Source: Thiomicrorhabdus indica
GTDB taxonomy: Bacteria; Pseudomonadota; Gammaproteobacteria; Thiomicrospirales; Thiomicrospiraceae
DNA: 64,000 nt
Reading direction: 5' to 3'
Assembly (NCBI RefSeq): GCF_004293625.1
Contig: NZ_CP033040.1
Coordinates: 1,860,001-1,924,000, forward strand
The notes beneath the pieces were generated by a model that searched no databases, was not told the origin of the DNA, and saw only the letters and a list, made by a program, of their open reading frames with translations. The position numbers and the translations under genes were made by a program. Positions 1 through 9,082 of this stretch are shown piece after piece. Positions within the stretch are counted from its first letter, which is position 1. Every line of letters begins with the position of its first letter.

Positions 1-700
1 CAACATTTGCTATCAATTGAGAATCTAGGTTTCCAATTGGTAGCCCTCTGTCTTGATGAGCTTTAAAAAGGCTTTTATGCTCTGGAACCTTACTGAAATT
101 CAGGGCATTTCCTTTTTTAATCGCCTCTTCTCTTCGTTGATTAAAAAGGGTTTCATGTAGCAAAAACTGCAAAACATCATTTTCTAAAACACCATCTCGT
201 TTAAAAATTTTCCAAACGGTTGGCAAGTGAATGCTTGCGAAAAAATTTGCTAAATCAAATTTTCCGAAATATGCAATGTCTTTGTAGTTTTTAGTTTCTT
301 TTCGCGTTGCTTTAACCGCTCTAGTAACAGCGTTATGTATTCCTCTTCCTGGGATGCATGCATAAGAATCTTGGATAAATCTTTTGTGATACCAGGGTGA
401 GATTCGGTTATAAATGATGTGGTGAACAACTCTATCTCTAAATTGAGCTGCCCAAACCTCCCTTGGTTTAGGCTTGGTTACAACGAACACTTCGCTCGGT
501 AGTGGCTTATATCTTTGCGATTTGATCTCTTCAAAGAGGTTGATTAGATTTTTTTCAAGATCCATTTCAAACTGTATTTGATGATCTGAATTTCGCTTAT
601 TTTTACGACACGAGTAGTAGGCTTTGAATACCTCTTCAAGAGTGAATGGATAATCTGCGATCGGAACAATATCTTCTTGAAGTTTTTCTATAGCACCAAT
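1..700 (-). CDS. DGR reverse transcriptase, partial (3' end off window)
   Basis: The minus-strand frame translates to a retron/group II-like reverse transcriptase. Visible motifs in order are FKAYYSCRKNKR, REVWAAQFRDRVVHHII, GKFDLANFFASIH (first catalytic aspartate) and GLPIGNLDSQLIANV, which matches the [I/V/L]GxxxSQ motif typical of DGR enzymes. The YxDD motif would lie left of position 1. It copies the template RNA into mutagenised cDNA together with Avd. The start is unclear: between the template repeat and the RT core there is no in-frame ATG, GTG or TTG. The first in-frame ATG (563-565) falls inside the N-terminal domain. The frame is open upstream to a stop at 995-997, with GTG codons at 863-865 and 950-952. 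The end given here (an ATT codon) is a placeholder. Confidence 0.93.
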   Translation of the reverse strand, partial: MGAIEKLQEDIVPIADYPFTLEEVFKAYYSCRKNKRNSDHQIQFEMDLEKNLINLFEEIKSQRYKPLPSEVFVVTKPKPREVWAAQFRDRVVHHIIYNRISPWYHKRFIQDSYACIPGRGIHNAVTRAVKATRKETKNYKDIAYFGKFDLANFFASIHLPTVWKIFKRDGVLENDVLQFLLHETLFNQRREEAIKKGNALNFSKVPEHKSLFKAHQDRGLPIGNLDSQLIANV

Positions 701-715
701 AGGTGGAACGGCTTG
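692..715 (-). repeat. Inverted repeat arm, RT side of the DGR template
   Basis: This 24-bp segment is the reverse complement of 1067-1090 with one mismatch. In minus-strand RNA the mismatch becomes a G-U wobble, so all 24 positions can pair. It overlaps the first part of the RT reading frame, just 3' of the template repeat in the transcript. Confidence 0.92.
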
Positions 716-721
716 GTATTG

Positions 722-846
722 ACTGCGGACACAACGAACTCGGTTGAGATTGTTCTTGTTGTTGTTGCTCTGGCTGCCATCACTAAAGCTCTGGTACCAT
801 GCGTTATTGGCATTGTTCTCAGTGGAAGACCAGTAATTAGCTGTGG
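722..846 (-). ncRNA. DGR template repeat (TR) RNA region
   Basis: 125 bp align without gaps to 1509-1633 at the end of the target gene. The ten differences (754, 759, 760, 763, 780, 795, 805, 807, 817, 844) are all T on the plus strand, that is A in the transcribed minus strand. This is the adenine-specific mutagenesis signature of DGRs. The variable codons are mostly AAC or AAT in the template. The first 32 bp (722-753) match the variable repeat exactly and contain the initiation-of-homing segment. Order target-avd-TR-RT is the common DGR layout. A longer functional RNA probably extends to 1090. Confidence 0.97.
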
Positions 847-1065
847 CAGCGCCATTGGTAAACACTCTTGCCGATGCACTCGGTTGCTTTTGAGCAGCGT
901 CGGTTGCGCAGTCAAGCGGCAAGTTCAGTTGTAAATTCAACTTATTATTCACTTCGTCGCTCTGCCTTCTGCACTTTCTACCTGTCTTATGGATTCAGGT
1001 GGTTTACAACAAATACCAGTCAAATCTGCTCTCTCATATTTACCTTAATAAATATAAATCCGGCT

Positions 1066-1440
1066 TCAAGCCGTTCCACCTATTGGCGCTTGTTTTCTTT
1101 TTTCACTTTTTTTCCAACCTTCGGCTTGTTTGCAAATTTCAACGTTTAAATTAGATAGACGAGCAAACTGTCCAATTGAAATAAAGTGCATGTCTTTACA
1201 TAAACGAAGGCTTAGCATAATTAGCTCCATGCGCTCTAAAATTTCTATTATTTTTGAAAGCCTATCTGTTGAAGAATTGTTGACACGATAGATCATGAGA
1301 ACGATATCTCTAGATTGCTCAATCAAATCCTTGCCTAAAACTAATTTGTAGTCCCGTGGAAAATTTTTTACCACTTTCGTAATCATTAAAACTAGGTCAT
1401 AAGTTTTCTTGTAAATGGGTAGATGGTCTGCTCTTGCCAT
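1066..1440 (-). CDS. avd: DGR accessory variability determinant (Avd)
   Basis: 124 aa, basic and all-helical, with the features of the Avd/bAvd four-helix-bundle family. It starts MARADHLPIYKKTYDLVLMI and continues with helices rich in ILE/LEU/MET (ERMELIMLSLRLCKD). Avd forms a pentameric barrel that binds the reverse transcriptase and template RNA, and is needed for mutagenic retrohoming. It lies between the target gene and the TR, its usual place. The ATG at 1440 has a GGAG ribosome site. Its last codons overlap one arm of the 24-bp inverted repeat that brackets the TR. Confidence 0.92.
   Translation of the reverse strand: MARADHLPIYKKTYDLVLMITKVVKNFPRDYKLVLGKDLIEQSRDIVLMIYRVNNSSTDRLSKIIEILERMELIMLSLRLCKDMHFISIGQFARLSNLNVEICKQAEGWKKSEKRKQAPIGGTA
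1067..1090 (-). repeat. Inverted repeat arm, Avd side of the DGR template
   Basis: Partner of 692-715 (23 of 24 bases plus one G-U). It covers the last codons and stop of avd. The enclosed segment is about 350 nt and holds the whole TR. Confidence 0.92.
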
Positions 1441-1460
1441 ATGGTCTCCAAAAAATTTCG

Positions 1461-1480
1461 CTGAGCCGTAAACGGCTCAG
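1461..1480 (-). other. DGR target-recognition hairpin
   Basis: CTGAGCCG TTTA CGGCTCAG on the minus strand: a perfect 8-bp stem with a 4-nt loop, 28 bp past the 3' end of the variable repeat and between target stop and avd start. Hairpins or cruciforms of this size just downstream of the variable repeat are known to be required for target recognition in Bordetella phage and other DGRs. It could also act as a weak terminator, but no U-tract follows it. Confidence 0.8.
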
Positions 1481-1502: not shown

Positions 1503-2345
1503 TCAATAACTGCGGACACAACGAACTCGGTTGAGATTGTACTTGAGGTCGTTGCTCTGGCTGCCAACACTAAAGCTCTGGGACCATGCGTAAGTGGCAT
1601 TGTCCTCAGTGGAAGACCAGTAATTAGCTGGGGAGAATCCTCCAATTAAGTCCTTTTGTGCAAAGAGGCTGTTCAACTGAGTCTTGGCTGGTAAATACCA
1701 GCCACTCCCTTTGTCAGAACAAAGTTTTGCTGCCACAGCATTTGATGAATTATTTGGTAAGCAGCTTTGTGTGATTGAGGTGTTATATTCTCCGTTTGTG
1801 GTTGAGGATGCCCCAGTAGATTGGTTGTAGCATCCATATTCAGCTGTACGATTTTCATCAAAAAGTGCAGCAGCCATACCTGGTTCAACCGTTATGCCTC
1901 CATTTGGACTTACAGTCTTGACATACAAAGAGCCACTGGCTTCTAAATAAAATCGACACTTTGTAACACCTGAATAAGACATACAGTTTGGATATAAATT
2001 ATTATCAATATCTCGAAATTGCACGTTGGTCGATGTTTCTACATCAATCACTCCTGCTGGTGGGGCAGCGTTCATATAATCGCATCCTGCCCCACAGCTC
2101 TCCCCATTAATTGTAATTGTGTAGCTTAAATCAGCAGGGTCTTTTTCTACGGTCAGTTGAGCGGTTTGCATCGCTTCTGCCATTGCTTGAGCATCAAGAG
2201 ATCCTGAAGATGCAGCCGTAGTAGATGGCTCAGGAAAATACAAATAAGATGCTGTGCTACCTGGTTGTACAATGACGGGGGCAGCAACTGCCTGTGCTCC
2301 AACCCCTAACCCAATCATAATGATCGATAATTTTAATGAACGCAT
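1503..2345 (-). CDS. DGR target: secreted Lcl-domain protein, probable pilus-associated adhesin
   Basis: 280 aa. The N-terminus is a Sec signal peptide with likely cleavage after AQAVAA (about residue 22). Residues about 60-160 are a Cys-containing region of unknown fold. Residues about 165-280 are an Lcl/DUF1566-type C-type-lectin-like domain (GSGWYLPAKTQLNSLF, ANYWSSTE, RVRCVRSY). The final 42 codons plus stop lie in or beside the variable repeat. Residues changed relative to the template are P, D, T, Y, S, V, D, L and Y, where the template encodes T, N, N, N, Y, D, N, N and N. The ATG at 2345 has AGGTGG upstream. It lies 5-10 bp after pilV, so it is probably translated with the pilus operon and carried on the pilus. 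Direct pilus attachment is inferred. Confidence 0.9.
   Translation of the reverse strand: MRSLKLSIIMIGLGVGAQAVAAPVIVQPGSTASYLYFPEPSTTAASSGSLDAQAMAEAMQTAQLTVEKDPADLSYTITINGESCGAGCDYMNAAPPAGVIDVETSTNVQFRDIDNNLYPNCMSYSGVTKCRFYLEASGSLYVKTVSPNGGITVEPGMAAALFDENRTAEYGCYNQSTGASSTTNGEYNTSITQSCLPNNSSNAVAAKLCSDKGSGWYLPAKTQLNSLFAQKDLIGGFSPANYWSSTEDNATYAWSQSFSVGSQSNDLKYNLNRVRCVRSY
1509..1633 (-). repeat. DGR variable repeat (VR)
   Basis: Gap-free match to the template at 722-846 with ten substitutions, each opposite a template adenine. The 32 bp nearest the stop codon are invariant, as expected for the initiation-of-homing segment. The VR ends three bases before the TGA stop codon, so diversification is confined to the extreme C-terminus of the target. 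Confidence 0.97.
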
Positions 2346-2352
2346 ATTCCAC

Positions 2353-3051
2353 CTAATTTATAAACTCATTTAAATCTAACTTCCAACCTGATCCACATGC
2401 TTCTCCAGCATTGCAAGCCACGAGATCACTTCCAGGCACAATTCCAGCGGTAGCGCCTAAAAGCTTTCGTGTTTCAAGTGACTTCTCAAAATCAGCCTCA
2501 ATCAGTGCTTGATCTCCGTCAAAGCTAGCCAATACCACCAACATATCAACTTCATTCGTTGGCTCATCATCGGCTGTACCTAAAATGCCATCGACCCCTT
2601 CTGTAAAGATTTGTCGAAAAATGGCCACATAATGATCACTGGTTATTGGCGGTAGTTCTAACGGCCATAGATTCCGCTGTTTTAACGCATAAGCATCAAA
2701 CGCACAGGTATGTAACGTGGTATTAAATGTAGCCACACCACCACTTAATTCGTCAGTTGCACTATCGATTCCTGTTGCATGTATCTGGCAATACTTATTT
2801 GCATCCGTTCCATCGGTCATAGCTTGGGTTATGCCTGTTCGATGATTCAAAAAGTACTGAGCAGCACTATTTTGAAATGTGGCCAAGTTGTCGGATTCCA
2901 AAGCGGCAGATGACTTTATCGACATGGTTTCATTCATCTGTAAAACGGAAGTCATTAATAATGCAACAACACTGAGCGCTGCAACCATCTCAAGCATCGC
3001 CATACCTTTTTGCGTACCCAATTTTTTATTCGCAAAGCGTTTTATAAACAT
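2353..3051 (-). CDS. pilV: PilV-like type IVb minor prepilin
   Basis: About 232 aa. The N-terminus is a basic leader ending GTQKG, then MAMLEMVAALSVVALLMTSV: prepilin peptidase cleaves after G and the mature pilin has Glu5 and a hydrophobic helix. The rest is a soluble pilin domain. It ends in a Cys-containing tail (CNAGEACGSGWKLDL). In R64/SPI-7 systems PilV is the tip adhesin that selects recipients. Here the variable tip domain appears split off into the next gene. Start: GTG 3060, ATG 3057 and ATG 3051 are in frame; ATG 3051 has the best spacing to AGGGAG. It overlaps the end of pilM. Confidence 0.8.
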   Translation of the reverse strand: MFIKRFANKKLGTQKGMAMLEMVAALSVVALLMTSVLQMNETMSIKSSAALESDNLATFQNSAAQYFLNHRTGITQAMTDGTDANKYCQIHATGIDSATDELSGGVATFNTTLHTCAFDAYALKQRNLWPLELPPITSDHYVAIFRQIFTEGVDGILGTADDEPTNEVDMLVVLASFDGDQALIEADFEKSLETRKLLGATAGIVPGSDLVACNAGEACGSGWKLDLNEFIN

Positions 3052-3475
3052 CGGCATCACTCCCTGTCTCTCCCAACACGATATAGTCTTGACTCCCTGA
3101 CGATAAACGAGTTTTCGTCAAATAATTGGCTTCAAGACGTAAAATAGCAGGCTCACTTAACTGCCCACATACAGCCCAATTATTCGTATCTCTAGAAAGA
3201 TAAAAATTTGAATAAGCAGCAGTTGACAAAGATTTCATACCACTTGGTAGCCGTGTATTGGATTGAATATCTACCCATTGATAAAAGGTTTTTGAGCTAG
3301 GTGCAGGATTCTTCTCCACAAAAAGCTTTGCAGCCCAAGTGAAGTTTTTATAAGCACTGACTTCTTCAGTAACCTCAATGATTTTAGTTCCGGATGAATT
3401 TTCCTGAATATGACCATTCAAGCCAGCTTGCAAAGCTACGCTGCCTACCAACAACACAATATAGAGAAATAACAA
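3026..3475 (-). CDS. pilM: PilM-like pilus accessory protein
   Basis: 149 aa with an N-terminal hydrophobic segment (LFLYIVLLVGSVALQAG, residues about 2-19) and a soluble remainder. Size, topology and operon place fit PilM of IncI/R64-type pili, a small inner-membrane accessory protein. It starts at TTG 3475 with a strong GGAGG upstream; no ATG fits. In R64 pilM lies between pilL and pilN, so its place near pilV is a rearrangement. The match to PilM is by general character, not a specific motif. Confidence 0.6.
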   Translation of the reverse strand: MLFLYIVLLVGSVALQAGLNGHIQENSSGTKIIEVTEEVSAYKNFTWAAKLFVEKNPAPSSKTFYQWVDIQSNTRLPSGMKSLSTAAYSNFYLSRDTNNWAVCGQLSEPAILRLEANYLTKTRLSSGSQDYIVLGETGSDADVYKTLCE

Positions 3476-3509
3476 GACCTAACCCTCCAAACCTTAACTA
3501 AAGCCTTAC

Positions 3510-4469
3510 TTAACTAGCTGCTCGTTTTTGAATTAATGCTTGCCGCATTTGATTTTTTTGAAAGAGCACTTCATCTTTAAGTTGAGGTAAATTACGAGAG
3601 CGTATAGTTGAAGCAACTTTTGAAGAGTCTCCCTCTGATTTTAATATCGTTGTATTTAAACGGCCGTCCTCAATCTTTTGATGCAGAATCACGCGTAATA
3701 CTGAAGCAAGTGTATTAGATGAGTTCTCTCCAAGTAATTGATTAAAAGAATCAAGAGAAGAGACTAAATCTGTCCCAAACCCTGTGCAAATAACCAAGAA
3801 ACCATTGGAGGCTGCACGCAAAAGCATTTGAGCGGCTTCAGAATCCCTGACCTCACCCACAAACAAAATTAAATTTTGATTAGCTGGCTGGGATCGAAGT
3901 ACCCCTCTCATCGATTCAGTCCAATCTCGGTCGTTGGCAACGGTTGTCTGGGTGCAATAACCCTTACCATGTCTGCCATTAATCGGATGTTCCGGAGGAT
4001 CCTCAACCGTGTAGGCCATACCTCCTAAAGCCTCCAGTCTAGATACCACCGTTGCAGAAGCGGTCGTCGTTTTTCCTGAACCAGGAGCGCCGCAAATAAA
4101 AATCAACCCTCCCTTCACAATGCTTGAATCAATCAATGCCTCTTGAACATACTCAGGGAGAGGACTGGGAAGTCTACTCAAATTCAGAGCTTCATTCGTT
4201 GCACGACGAACGCGATACCAAATTCCATCGATTGAGCGTGTATCTTTATAAACACGATAATGCTGTCCATTGTGTTCAATAGAGGCATCTTTTGATTGTG
4301 TTGCTTGACAGAGTTCGTAGAGGCTTTGAATTAATTCAGGATCAGAAAAATCCTTACCTGAAGTCAACCCTGGAAATACCAGAGTTGAGTCCAAATCGAC
4401 TTCACTACCGGACTGGTTTTTTCCGGCAGGAAGCGTTTTTACTTTAATGTGAATATCTGTAAAAGACAT
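3510..4469 (-). CDS. PilT/GspE-family ATPase, probable retraction-type motor
   Basis: 319 aa. Walker A GAPGSGKT lies at residues 127-134, with a following His-rich Asp box (EDPPEHPI), and Walker B-like LILFVGEVRD. This is the secretion/twitching ATPase fold without the N-terminal extension of assembly ATPases such as PilQ, so a retraction or accessory motor is the best guess. R64 pilT is a lytic transglycosylase, so the symbol pilT is avoided. It follows pilS by about 17 bp in the same operon. Confidence 0.82.
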   Translation of the reverse strand: MSFTDIHIKVKTLPAGKNQSGSEVDLDSTLVFPGLTSGKDFSDPELIQSLYELCQATQSKDASIEHNGQHYRVYKDTRSIDGIWYRVRRATNEALNLSRLPSPLPEYVQEALIDSSIVKGGLIFICGAPGSGKTTTASATVVSRLEALGGMAYTVEDPPEHPINGRHGKGYCTQTTVANDRDWTESMRGVLRSQPANQNLILFVGEVRDSEAAQMLLRAASNGFLVICTGFGTDLVSSLDSFNQLLGENSSNTLASVLRVILHQKIEDGRLNTTILKSEGDSSKVASTIRSRNLPQLKDEVLFQKNQMRQALIQKRAAS

Positions 4470-4486
4470 AATCTAAAAAACTTTAA

Positions 4487-5116
4487 TTACTTAATGGTAA
4501 AAACAATGACAGGAGATGTTTCAGAGCACCCCGTTGCAATAGCCACTGGATTAGGTGTATCGGTTGATACACTTTTTACCTGATTATCTGCCGTCACAGT
4601 CAAACCTGATGCTAATGACGCTGAATCACCGACTTGCAATTGATGCGAAAATTTTGAGATACCTTTAACCAGATCAACACAGGTTTCTTTGCCTAAGTTT
4701 GCACCGCCAATTTGCATACCAAACTCACTTGTGTTGGCTGCAACGACAACATCATGCCCCCAAGGATCTAAAATTTTTGTATTAGTCGCATCCCAAACAA
4801 ACGGGCTTTTAACCAAGCCTGCATTATTCCAATTTTCAATTGTATTCAGCCCAGTAAAATCATTGGCAATACCAAATAAACTTCGAGCTTTAGTGGCAGT
4901 ATTCACTACGGTTTGCACCGTATCGTTTACCATCTGAGCATCTGTCGCATTTTTTTGCCAAGATATAACCGCTGTTGCAGCGACCCCCATCAAGCCTAAA
5001 GCAATTGCCCATTCCATAAGAGCAACACCACGTTGCTTATGCTTATAGTTATACAGTCGTTTAGGCGGTTGTGATTCAAGCTTATTTAAATCACAGTTTT
5101 TTACAGATTTTTCCAT
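4487..5116 (-). CDS. pilS: Type IVb major prepilin PilS
   Basis: 209 aa. A long basic leader ends KHKQRG, followed by VALMEWAIALGLMGVAATAV: cleavage after G leaves Glu5 in the mature pilin, and the long leader is typical of type IVb prepilins. The globular part has a Cys pair (ETCVDLVK, TGCSE) suitable for the pilin disulfide. Start at ATG 5116 is chosen for its AAGGAGATT ribosome site; a longer frame to 5173 overlaps pilR and lacks one. No prepilin peptidase (PilU) gene is present in the window. Confidence 0.88.
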   Translation of the reverse strand: MEKSVKNCDLNKLESQPPKRLYNYKHKQRGVALMEWAIALGLMGVAATAVISWQKNATDAQMVNDTVQTVVNTATKARSLFGIANDFTGLNTIENWNNAGLVKSPFVWDATNTKILDPWGHDVVVAANTSEFGMQIGGANLGKETCVDLVKGISKFSHQLQVGDSASLASGLTVTADNQVKSVSTDTPNPVAIATGCSETSPVIVFTIK

Positions 5117-5136
5117 GACAATCTCCTTTATGGAAT

Positions 5137-6168
5137 TTACTGAGTGATAGATAAAAGGCTCATGTACACCCAACCAATTACTCCCCCTACCAGGGCAAGC
5201 AATAAACTGGACAAAACATTGCCAAATATAAATTGCAGTCTTGAAAAAACGGTTTTTTCGATTTTTTCAACAATGATTAAGAACGCTTTCGAATCAGATC
5301 CCATGCGGCTGTAGACATTAATAATCCAGTGATATTTTGGAGGGATCATTGATAAAGCAGTTAAAGCCTGCGCTGTTGTCTTACCTTGACGAATGCTACG
5401 CATCACCAATTCACATTGATATTGAATATAGTTTGAGCTACCTGAACGAATATGTTTGATTGCGTCAGATAGCGGAACTCCTGCTGAGATATACCCCTCA
5501 ATGGAATTTAAAAAACGCGTGGATTCTATTTGAGACATCAATCCGAAAATGGGGATGTTACGATCAGCAAATTCTCTGCTTTCTCCAGTCCATCGAGGCA
5601 GCAAAAAACGGATACCAAAAAAAACAGCCGCAATAAATGCGACAATCCCAATTGAAATATAAACAGACATATCCGCTACTTGCGCAAACAGTTGTGCACT
5701 GTATGGCCACTCATACCTTGGTTTGACCTCTTCAAAGCCAGGTAGAACTTTTATTGAAAAAAAGAGCAGTAGAACAATCAAAGCTGCAATATACATCAAA
5801 GGTTTGATGAGTGATGCTGTGAGAGTTTTTGTCAATTTCTCTTTGTTCTCAATCGTCTTTTTTGCATTGGTAAATCCCGCTTCAAGATTCCCTGAAGATT
5901 CACCTGCATGGATAAGCATGTACTCACCTTGAGGAATTAATCCCTTGAGTGAAGCAGTGATTGACAATGCTTGACCGCTTCCACCACGTAATCTTCGATT
6001 CACCTCTTTGATCAAAGGCGACAATGGATGACGAACTTTCTTAAAGTCGCGTTCCATATCCTTCAATGCATCGGTTAAAGGAATCCCTTTATGAATGATT
6101 CCTGATATAGACTCATACCATTCAAGACGAACTTGATCTGTCACTAGAATTTGTTCAAAAAAATTCAA
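5137..6168 (-). CDS. pilR: PilR-like inner-membrane platform protein
   Basis: 343 aa with the GspF/TadC architecture: a cytoplasmic segment with HAGESSGNLEAGF, paired transmembrane segments (residues about 125-145 and 175-200), a second cytoplasmic copy of the motif (ISAGVPLSDAI), and a final transmembrane helix near the C-terminus. It is the polytopic platform on which PilQ assembles pilin. It overlaps pilQ by 4 bp, so translation is coupled. Confidence 0.9.
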   Translation of the reverse strand: MNFFEQILVTDQVRLEWYESISGIIHKGIPLTDALKDMERDFKKVRHPLSPLIKEVNRRLRGGSGQALSITASLKGLIPQGEYMLIHAGESSGNLEAGFTNAKKTIENKEKLTKTLTASLIKPLMYIAALIVLLLFFSIKVLPGFEEVKPRYEWPYSAQLFAQVADMSVYISIGIVAFIAAVFFGIRFLLPRWTGESREFADRNIPIFGLMSQIESTRFLNSIEGYISAGVPLSDAIKHIRSGSSNYIQYQCELVMRSIRQGKTTAQALTALSMIPPKYHWIINVYSRMGSDSKAFLIIVEKIEKTVFSRLQFIFGNVLSSLLLALVGGVIGWVYMSLLSITQ

Positions 6169-7736
6169 AGATTTTCACCCTTTATCAATCCAATCGAAAT
6201 TTCTACGTCATGTGGATCTACGACCCCTTGCAAAACTTTTGTTAAAGCGTGTGAAACGGCTCTTACCCCAAATCGGTCATGTTGCAAATGAGAAAAGTTG
6301 TTCCAAATTTGAAATGCAGTTTCAAACTCCCCTTCTTTAATTGCACTTAACAGTGGCGTGGATGTCGGTAGAAATTCAGAGGCTACGGTTAAACCAACCG
6401 TGCCTTTACTATTGCATGTACTACATTCACAGCCATCACGATTGCGAAAGCGAATCAATTCAAATTCATCGATCTCAAGTACGCCAGCTAATCTTGATTG
6501 CAAGCCTTCTGTTATGTATTTTTTTTCGATTGCTTGTTCATAATTCAATGAACAGTCCGGACAAATTTTAGGAATCAATCTTTGATAAATGACACCTGAA
6601 AGAAACCCTTTCATAAACAGAATATTTTCAGGAACACCGATTTCTCGGAGTCGCATAAAAGCAGCCATTGCATCCGATGCATGTAAAGTGGATAAAATTT
6701 TCCGGCCGGCCAAAGACAAATCTTTCATGATGCGACCAGCTTCTTCATCGCGTACTTCACCCAGCATGACGACATCAGCATCTTGTCTGAGGGTTGCTTT
6801 CATCAGCTGGCCATATACAGAACCTTCCGTATTCTGAAGAGATTTACGTCCGGATGAGACACCCATCTGACAAGCGCCAGTAATGACGTATTCGACTGGA
6901 TCTTCAACTGAAACTAATTTGATATTTTCACCGCGAACTTCTTGAATTCGGGTGGCAATACTATGTAATGAGGTGGTTTTTCCTGAGTTAGTCGGACCGA
7001 CTAATAAAATTGCACCTTGCGCTCCCAACATCATCTCTTCAAGCTCTAAAACCTGACCGCTTGAATAGCCAATTTGAGCAATACTGGGTAAGTCATGATG
7101 TATCAACAAGCGAGTCACAATTTGAAAATTACCACTTGGATAGATCGGTGCAGAATTAAATCGAATCTGAACTTGCTTGTTGTCTTTTGTTACATAATTG
7201 ATAGAAGCATCTTTAACGGAATCCGCAGACCAAGTAACGTCTTTTGAAGAGCTATCTGCATAGATTTGATACAAAATATTGCAAATTGATTCTGCCGTTT
7301 GTTTTGATATTGTTTTTTGTTTGACTCGTAGAGAATCGATTCGAAAAAACACATCGCAATAGCCGCCACGGGTTTCGATATGAATATCTGACGTTTTTTG
7401 TTTTACGGCATCTTCAATTAAATTCCAGACAACTTTCTCGGCTTGAGATACATCATTAATGGCATCATTGGCAACATCCATTGATCGCAAAGATCGAATG
7501 ACTTCTGATGTTGCGCTATAACTCTGATACTCAATATTCCGATTTCTCAAACGAGTCTTTAGCTCAAGTAATTTTGAATCTCTCAGCATTAAGTTATCGA
7601 CAAGCAATGAATTGTTGTGTTTATTGCCGATTAAAATTGCGATATTGTTGAATTCATCAGAATTCGCACTAATATCAGCGAAGCTTAAAATTTTACCGGC
7701 CGGTACTTTGTGAATATCATCAATTAGCACAGTCAT
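6165..7736 (-). CDS. pilQ: PilQ-like pilus assembly ATPase (GspE family)
   Basis: 523 aa. Walker A GPTNSGKTT at residues 247-255, Asp box SVEDPVEYVI, Walker B VVMLGEVRDEEA, and a tetracysteine zinc element (CPDC, CECSTC) as in GspE/PilB assembly ATPases. It powers extension of the type IVb pilus. It overlaps both neighbours by 4 bp. Near its N-terminus (7696-7705) is the only exact copy of the host palindrome ACCGGCCGGT in the element, encoding PAG. Confidence 0.93.
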   Translation of the reverse strand: MTVLIDDIHKVPAGKILSFADISANSDEFNNIAILIGNKHNNSLLVDNLMLRDSKLLELKTRLRNRNIEYQSYSATSEVIRSLRSMDVANDAINDVSQAEKVVWNLIEDAVKQKTSDIHIETRGGYCDVFFRIDSLRVKQKTISKQTAESICNILYQIYADSSSKDVTWSADSVKDASINYVTKDNKQVQIRFNSAPIYPSGNFQIVTRLLIHHDLPSIAQIGYSSGQVLELEEMMLGAQGAILLVGPTNSGKTTSLHSIATRIQEVRGENIKLVSVEDPVEYVITGACQMGVSSGRKSLQNTEGSVYGQLMKATLRQDADVVMLGEVRDEEAGRIMKDLSLAGRKILSTLHASDAMAAFMRLREIGVPENILFMKGFLSGVIYQRLIPKICPDCSLNYEQAIEKKYITEGLQSRLAGVLEIDEFELIRFRNRDGCECSTCNSKGTVGLTVASEFLPTSTPLLSAIKEGEFETAFQIWNNFSHLQHDRFGVRAVSHALTKVLQGVVDPHDVEISIGLIKGENL

Positions 7737-9082
7737 TTACTGCCTCCTAGATACACAGAGAAATTCAACTCGCCACGACTCTGAGAATCTAAGTTGATAC
7801 CAAACGATTGATGTAAAACGTAAAACGATTGTGACTTTGTAAAACTGTTTTTATTAAGTAAGTTCGTTAACAACTCAGCGTTACCAACCGCCTTAATTTC
7901 AGCTTTATAGAACAGTGTTTTATCTGAAATATTTAATTCTTGATTTCCTTTTTGAATGATTGGTTCAAATTTTGATACTTGAAATCTTGACAGCCCAAAT
8001 TGTCCAAGAATTTTGATGATCTCACCTCTATGCTTGAACAGTTGTTTTTCTGTGATTACCTCTTCAAGAGGAATCAATTTAGAACCCGATTTTGATTCTT
8101 TTTGAAGTTCTTGGAGTTTGAAAACAGAGGTAGCAGCCTGATCGTCTTGCTGACTGGAGGCTTTAAAATCAACGCCAATTAAATCGATCTTCCCTAATGG
8201 GTTAACTTTAGCGGTTGCGGCTTGCCATTGGACAGTACAGGTGCTTTGATCGCACTTTAATGACTTTGGTTTATATCCACTTTGAATAACAGGTAACGAT
8301 TGATAAACGTCATGCCAAATAACAGCTGTAAATTGGGCTTTTTGGTTAGTTTGATCCAATTTCATCGACAAAGATTTCTCGTACTCATGTTTCAAAACCA
8401 AAAGACGTTTTTCTCTTTCTTCTTTTTCATTGCTGACATTAGAAATGATGTGTTTCACAACGGGTTGAGAGAAAGATTCAGGTACAGTGACATCAAGTGC
8501 GGCAGGTTTATTTAACTGAGTGTAAGCATACACAGAGGCAGTCATTACAGTTGCAGTGATGAGTAGTGCATAATTTGGTTTGCGCTTATATGCTTGACGT
8601 AATGCTTTTTTAGAGACTTCTTTATCATCAATAGCAAACTCAAGATCAGACCAAAATTGATCCGAAGTTTTTTCCTCTTGCGTTTGAGATCCATACTTCA
8701 GAAGTGGTAAATCTGAAAATGTTTGCAGAACATCTTGGTAGATAGCATCTTCGGTCAGATTATTTGATTGCAGAATCAGATCATGGCCATTGACTGGGAG
8801 ACCATTTTCAACCACTAATACCCAATATTGATCATTACCAAGATGTACGACAAAAATGCCATCAAAGTGCAAATCTGCTAGCAGTAATGACGCAACGTAT
8901 CGTCCAGCCAAAGGCTCAGAACAAAAGCCAATCAAGATATCTTTAGCTTCAAGTTTGACTTCAACTCTATGCTTTATTCCTTCTTTTTTATAATCATCGA
9001 TTAGAGTCTTAGCATCCTTTCTTGAATGCGCTAAACGCCAATCTAGACCGATTAAAAAGGGTTTTTCTCGTTGAATTAACAA
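7733..9082 (-). CDS. pilO: PilO-like type IVb pilus assembly protein
   Basis: 449 aa with one transmembrane helix (YALLITATVMTASVYAYT, residues about 173-190) splitting a cytoplasmic N-domain from a periplasmic C-domain. Length, topology and place between PilP and PilQ match R64-type PilO, which joins the cytoplasmic ATPase to the periplasmic pilus machinery. Its sequence is otherwise poorly conserved and the call rests partly on operon position. Confidence 0.82.
   Translation of the reverse strand: MLIQREKPFLIGLDWRLAHSRKDAKTLIDDYKKEGIKHRVEVKLEAKDILIGFCSEPLAGRYVASLLLADLHFDGIFVVHLGNDQYWVLVVENGLPVNGHDLILQSNNLTEDAIYQDVLQTFSDLPLLKYGSQTQEEKTSDQFWSDLEFAIDDKEVSKKALRQAYKRKPNYALLITATVMTASVYAYTQLNKPAALDVTVPESFSQPVVKHIISNVSNEKEEREKRLLVLKHEYEKSLSMKLDQTNQKAQFTAVIWHDVYQSLPVIQSGYKPKSLKCDQSTCTVQWQAATAKVNPLGKIDLIGVDFKASSQQDDQAATSVFKLQELQKESKSGSKLIPLEEVITEKQLFKHRGEIIKILGQFGLSRFQVSKFEPIIQKGNQELNISDKTLFYKAEIKAVGNAELLTNLLNKNSFTKSQSFYVLHQSFGINLDSQSRGELNFSVYLGGSK

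Follow-up and report, generated by a model that had tools for sequence, protein, structure and literature searches.

The closest known counterparts of the locus analysed here are the BPP-1 DGR RNA (RF03022, Phage_DGR), the RT-15 RNA (RF03018) and the group 3 DGRs of the DiGReF survey. PMC12875486 assigns two tasks to the BPP-1 spacer, recruitment of bRT-Avd and, through an internal adenine, priming of cDNA synthesis within the IMH*. The mechanistic DGR studies in the literature examined use BPP-1, in which the spacer lies 3' of the template. In group 3 of DiGReF, the TR overlaps one end of the RT ORF, either 5' or 3', an arrangement that the survey judged to be irrelevant to the mechanism (PMC3521204). 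The main text of PMC3521204 uses none of the terms RNA structure, secondary structure and inverted repeat. The locus described below resembles this group in that the TR is located beside or inside the RT frame.

The window, which refers to the whole 64-kb stretch of DNA analysed, was identified as containing a DGR by the RT and avd genes, an adenine-specific TR/VR pair and a stem-loop downstream of VR (Table 1). All mismatches between TR and VR in the ungapped register (10/10) are located at TR adenines, and the RT showed approximately 40% identity to RTs which themselves adjoin TR/VR pairs. The RT frame is open across the TR, starting from a stop codon at 997 (565-997, minus strand), and contains candidate start codons at GTG 952, TTG 940, TTG 922, GTG 865 and ATT 700, the last of which is located in arm 2 of the inverted repeat. 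The RT may thus have a TR-encoded N-terminal tail or be initiated at a rare codon. The RT frame was also open across the TR in 80 of the 98 loci analysed below. A conserved TR-RT fusion frame was considered and rejected, as the RT frame coincided with the VR frame in 35 of 98 loci, which is what is expected by chance.

Table 1. Positions of the DGR components, RNA elements and neighbouring genes in the window, and clamp arms of changed sequence in four related loci.
Feature	Position	Strand	Remarks
DGR reverse transcriptase	1..703	(-)	RVT_1 E 9.3e-19; runs past window edge (L002:1622-2704)
Clamp arm 2	692..715	(-)	3' arm in RNA, within RT frame; inverted-repeat pairing; 6 nt past TR
TR 3' end (IMH*) strand CAGUCAA, inner helix	719..725	(-)	3 nt from arm 2
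TR	722..846	(-)	125 nt, 92% identity to VR
Presumed primer strand UUGACUG	1017..1023	(-)	pairs with 719-725; MFE, probability 0.47-0.64
Sp-like element	1018..1065	(-)	hairpin and most of presumed primer strand; covariance model R1 match
Hairpin of Sp-like element	1036-1055	(-)	loop UAAG; folding
avd	1066..1440	(-)	Pfam bAvd PF22296 E 7.3e-15; stop TGA at 1068-1066
Clamp arm 1	1067..1090	(-)	5' arm in RNA, last avd codons; inverted-repeat pairing
Stem-loop 3' of VR	1461..1480	(-)	8-bp stem, loop TTTA; 28 nt past VR
DGR target gene, Lcl_C domain	1503..2345	(-)	Pfam PF07603 E 1.7e-8
VR, 3' end of target gene	1509..1633	(-)	match to TR
ORF without Pfam match	2353-3060	(-)	pilus-like cluster; prepilin-like start by eye
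T2SSE ATPases	3510-4469 and 6165-7736	(-)	pilus-like cluster
Bundlin/N-methyl	4487-5173	(-)	pilus-like cluster; weak matches
T2SSF	5137-6168	(-)	pilus-like cluster
PilO-like	7733-9082	(-)	pilus-like cluster; weak match
L122 clamp arms			UUAAAUCCGCAUCGU/ACGAUGUGGAUGUAA
L145 clamp arms			GUCCGCAUCGU/GCGGUGCGGAC
L025 clamp arms			UCGGGGAAGGGG/UCCCUUUCCCGA
L068 clamp arms			CUGGCAGCGU/GCGCUGCCAG

An earlier note on this DNA had called attention to a near-perfect inverted repeat with a G-U exception, formed by the end of avd and the start of the RT frame and enclosing about 350 nt including the TR. Our analysis confirmed this observation. The arms are 24 nt long, 96% complementary and separated by 351 nt, with the TR inside, and in the minus-strand RNA (AGCGCCAAUAGGUGGAACGGCUUG and CAAGCCGUUCCACCUAUUGGUGCU) all 24 positions are paired, one of them as G-U, with a duplex energy of -46.2 kcal/mol. 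Among perfect inverted repeats whose arms are at most 1 kb apart, the 20-bp core (696-715/1067-1086) is the longest in the 64-kb window, as compared to at most 15 bp in 60 mononucleotide shuffles. The fold proposed as a check in the note, that of the 690-1092 minus-strand RNA, yielded -133.7 kcal/mol (z -5.8), which was equalled by none of 100 shuffles, and the pairs of the repeat, hereafter the clamp, had a mean pairing probability of 0.996. The clamp, the hairpin and the inner helix listed in Table 1 were all present in the unforced MFE structure of the window RNA.

Loci with related RTs were collected from genomes (the best 80 of 510), from viral sequences (the best 80 of 567) and from 6 phages, which together with the window amounted to 167 loci. 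A TR was found in 147 of these, and the remaining 20 were dropped. Thinning of the 147 loci by 8-mer overlap resulted in 98 loci including the window, such that 97 non-redundant relatives were available for the test of the clamp. The TR finder gave 1875 of 1907 TR/VR mismatches at TR adenines, a share that is biased since mismatches elsewhere lower its score. None of the relatives among the matches listed had an RT identity above 48% (best segment), and the window RT as a single query against viral contigs retrieved no close relative. A near copy of the DGR was found neither in 62 genomes of the order (E 1e-40) nor in 369 genomes of the class (E 1e-60), and the RT of a relative in the genus (G006) showed 34% identity. 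Because no near relatives were found, compensation in the arms was tested over deep relatives only. The DGR looks sporadic in its distribution: the order-wide matches (62 genomes, E 1e-40) were confined to the window's own genome and one member of the genus, and at E 1e-10 distant RT matches were obtained in two further members of the family.

In 140 of the 147 DGRs with a found TR, the TR is located at most 60 nt from the RT match and a conserved element is present 5' of the TR. The RT-15 RNA was found in 11 of 24 related loci scanned with Rfam, where it fills the stretch 5' of the TR. From the position of RT-15 and the short distance between TR and RT, we place the window in a large group whose structured RNA precedes the template instead of following it. 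The window itself gave no match to RT-15 (RF03018) even at E 10, being too diverged, although RT-15 occupies the same place, between the avd end and the TR start and inside the clamp. The RT-15 model stops at the start of the TR and thus holds neither the clamp nor the IMH* helix.

In part of the relatives, a helix of different sequence occurs at the same place as the clamp, with arm 1 adjoining the conserved hairpin and arm 2 adjoining the 3' end of the TR (IMH*). Examples of such arms with changed sequence are given in Table 1. For each locus, the 38 nt at the 5' edge of the hairpin were paired with the 25 nt past the IMH* helix, using either its own or swapped arms. Pairing was better with own arms (z 8.1 when the window was left out, 0/20,000 permutations), and 15 of 98 loci, the window included, reached p < 0.05 individually. 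Among the control zones, the next zone downstream, beside arm 2, gave z 3.7 (3/20,000) and the zone further upstream z 2.3 (289/20,000), with z -0.8 further downstream and z 0.0 inside the element. In a scan of registers from -8 to +18, only the one that places each arm directly against its neighbour scored high (z 5.6, 0/5,000), the next-best registers having z 3.1 and 3.0.

In this fixed register, uninterrupted runs of at least 5, 7 and 10 bp were present in 25, 18 and 6 of the 97 relatives, as compared to 4.3, 1.6 and 0.3 expected. The runs in the 18 relatives with at least 7 bp span 7-12 bp, which makes the 24 bp of the window the longest uninterrupted helix. Ensemble folding gave at least 4 expected clamp pairs in 45 of 97 relatives versus 13-19 with swapped tails (four rounds). 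When wider zones were used, the mean duplex energy was better than in all 20,000 permutations, with only 4 of 75 loci standing out singly. Several of the clamp loci are related and have a common CCGCAUCG-like core, and are therefore not independent events. The clamp is not universal, as in 72 of the 97 relatives all runs in the fixed register are shorter than 5 bp, a count to be read with the possible misplacement of MAFFT anchors in diverged loci, which would lower the number of clamps. Thus, the compensation between arms that the earlier note had suggested looking for was observed at the same place in part of the relatives but not in the majority, and the opposite outcome, arms that diverge without compensation, did not occur among the deep relatives. 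A second clamp register located further 5' may exist in L143 (for example CGGGUGGCG/CGCCACCCG), L175, L127, L120 and L169; registers +6 and +11 scored z about 3.

Besides the TR, the clamp arms enclose the conserved RNA element 5' of the TR. The span from arm 1 to the TR is 220 nt and that from the TR to arm 2 is 6 nt. A BPP-1-like spacer between TR and RT is lacking in the window because the TR ends 6 nt short of arm 2, which is already in the RT frame; RF03022 has no match in the window. The covariance model R1, which describes the hairpin and the next strand and was built from 38 relatives with the window excluded, had its sole match in the 64 kb at 1065-1018 (minus strand), with 27.6 bits and an E-value of 1.4e-4 that is rough owing to the short calibration of the models. 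With filters off, the second-best match in the first 6 kb of the window had 5.4 bits. The match begins at 1065, such that a single base (1066) separates the Sp-like element from arm 1.

The strand following the hairpin pairs with the 3' end of the TR, and the equivalent of this inner helix was the top covarying 8-bp helix of 12,650 candidates joining the 5' element to the end of the TR in the 98 loci, window included (score 8.4 versus a candidate mean of 0.09, sd 0.73). The consensus pairs uUuAAUCUG in the 5' element with CAGAUuaaa at the TR 3' end, and one of its column pairs was paired in 87% of cases versus 42% expected. Self pairing was better than cross pairing (z 8.2 without the window, 0/20,000 permutations). 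The window's own inner helix was not individually significant, being absent from the 60 best rows of this test.

We consider it probable that the inverted repeat forms a long-range helix in the RNA and thereby closes a DGR template RNA of circularly permuted order. The order is TR, IMH*, hairpin, primer strand, rest of the spacer and RT in BPP-1, and it would be arm 1, hairpin, primer strand, rest of the spacer, TR, IMH*, arm 2 and RT in the clade of the window. The permuted order would put the break between the IMH* and the hairpin, where arms 1 and 2 sit, and the clamp would therefore replace the covalent link between TR and spacer. The arms probably pair in the RNA, returning the end of the template to the start of copying. 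The clamp would place the TR 3' end beside the hairpin and the primer strand, whereupon the IMH* would pair with the primer strand and RT-Avd would begin cDNA synthesis there. The sequence of the clamp would be free to vary, its length would set the firmness of the RNA closure, and ribosomes could open it, given that the last codons of avd form arm 1 and that arm 2 belongs to the RT frame. We infer a priming role for the inner helix, homology with the BPP-1 spacer and a contribution of the clamp to assembly or priming.

Judged from its sequence, the window carries the features of this proposed class, namely an Sp-like element 5' of the TR, an IMH* helix and a clamp in the abutting register. 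Representatives of the permuted type occur in phages and, judged by record titles, in bacterial genomes from at least two phyla. The probable closure of the RNA by the arms suggests that one and the same RNA machine occurs in two versions whose parts are ordered differently, by circular permutation. We see about even chances for the broader proposal that DGR RNAs have two natural circularly permuted topologies, of which the permuted one has the spacer before the template and a clamp of variable sequence in place of the covalent link, with the same RNA serving as messenger, RT cofactor and template and with its assembly opposed to translation of the flanks.

The comparison was extended to a BPP-1-like set of 67 loci, in 55 of which a TR was found. 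In these 55 loci the TR ends 144-187 nt before the RT match, as it also does in annotated BPP-1 (TR 2887-3020, brt from 2742). The GYYANGGC hairpin motif was present in 83 of 98 loci in the permuted group (4% in shuffles) and in 31 of 36 loci of the BPP-1 type (2% in shuffles); the hairpin loop of the window, AUUAAGGU, departs from the motif. For pairing between IMH* and spacer in the BPP-1 type, the loci used were those with the UGGUCAGC motif (58 of 67, of which thinning left 37), and the anchored self/cross test displayed a modest signal (z 3.3, 27/20,000, 37 loci). The column-pair scan of the BPP-1 type revealed no covarying helix (best score 3.0), for which variation in the TR end and in bulges is perhaps responsible. 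The IMH*-pairing strand of the BPP-1 type runs into a GGUCAGC motif. In BPP-1 itself the strand is AGGUGGU, and the adenine one base past it is presumably the priming A56.

Thus, the two RNAs are alike in the GYYANGGC-type hairpin loop, in the GGUC at the IMH*-pairing strand and in having avd and RT as neighbours, whereas in BPP-1 the Sp is located 3' of the TR and covalently joined to it, and the TR abuts avd. Model R1 missed the BPP-1 spacer and, at the right place, the spacers of the 37 BPP-1-type loci, and model R2, built from 33 BPP-1-type loci, missed the permuted element in 93 loci and in the window. Common descent of the permuted-type and BPP-1 spacers is suggested by shared motifs, with covariance models that do not detect each other's elements. 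In an alignment of 33 BPP-1-type loci (A4, L184-L241), RNAalifold joins GACC to the GGUC by which the IMH* helix could otherwise be lengthened; this predicted pairing is a possible switch between a resting and a priming form.

The earlier note had placed the repeat around the template RNA, which is feasible at the RNA level but incomplete, since the arms also enclose the 5' element and abut a second covarying helix. For the same reason, that the arms enclose the 5' element and abut the IMH* helix, we favour an architectural role of the clamp over RNA processing or the hiding of the RT start. The latter, also raised in the note, would make the clamp a switch between messenger and template, which translating ribosomes open and which, when closed, masks the RT start. 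In the window, both arms lie in coding sequence, and avd-like ORFs, called by length and place, have their stop at or past the edge of the hairpin that adjoins arm 1 in 91 of 95 loci (window included). In 54 of 98 loci the RT frame has an ATG, GTG or TTG between -5 and +45 relative to the TR end, and arm 2 of L016 itself contains an ATG, so that start hiding is conceivable in some relatives. The other 44 loci have no start-type codon in that interval, and the case is weak in the window, where the last ATG/GTG/TTG upstream of the conserved RT is GTG 865, 5' of the TR and outside the arm, with ATT 700 as the sole candidate in arm 2. We regard such a switch as unlikely.

Alternatively, the helix could delimit the template RNA so that it is processed or protected, as an RNase III site or an exonuclease block, consistent with its position as the boundary of the TR and the Sp-like element. 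A near-perfect duplex of 24 bp is long enough for RNase III, but 7-12 bp is short for this enzyme. The runs in the 18 relatives with at least 7 bp are all of the shorter kind, which argues against cutting, and so against the RNase III site of the earlier note, as a shared function. This explanation as a whole appears quite unlikely. The repeat could also have arisen by chance or by a recent inverted duplication without function, given that most relatives miss the clamp in the fixed register and that the window is an outlier in length. We find this very improbable, since the perfect core exceeds the longest repeat in any shuffle and since the placement against the hairpin and the IMH* helix is common to relatives of different sequence. 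Least probable of all is a terminator or attenuator between avd and RT, for although a strong hairpin could stall the polymerase, the loop is 351 nt long, no U-tract is present past arm 2 and the TR has already been transcribed before arm 2 exists.

Closure of a permuted template RNA by the clamp would, if true, explain the TR-overlaps-RT arrangement that one survey deemed irrelevant (PMC3521204), and the clamp together with compensatory mutants would provide a simple handle on the placement of the IMH* for priming. If many DGRs are permuted, RT-15 as modelled would be only part of their template RNA, and reconstitution would need the end of avd and the start of RT on one RNA. Neither a permuted DGR RNA nor such a clamp was described in the literature titles and abstract openings examined, a set that does not include the main structural papers.

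The stem-loop 3' of VR is located at the same place as the retrohoming hairpin/cruciform of the BPP-1 VR, which is an inverted repeat needed by the DGR but, unlike the template clamp, a DNA element at the target site (PMC3240598). The TTTA loop of the window's stem-loop differs from the GRNA loop reported for phage DGRs in PMC3240598. A run of six T is located 5 nt past the stem-loop (1450-1480, minus strand), which could double as a weak terminator. In the region 1503-9082 (minus strand), the target gene, with its Lcl_C domain and signal-peptide-like start, comes after a type II/IV pilus-like cluster (Table 1), and the DGR may diversify a pilus-borne adhesin.
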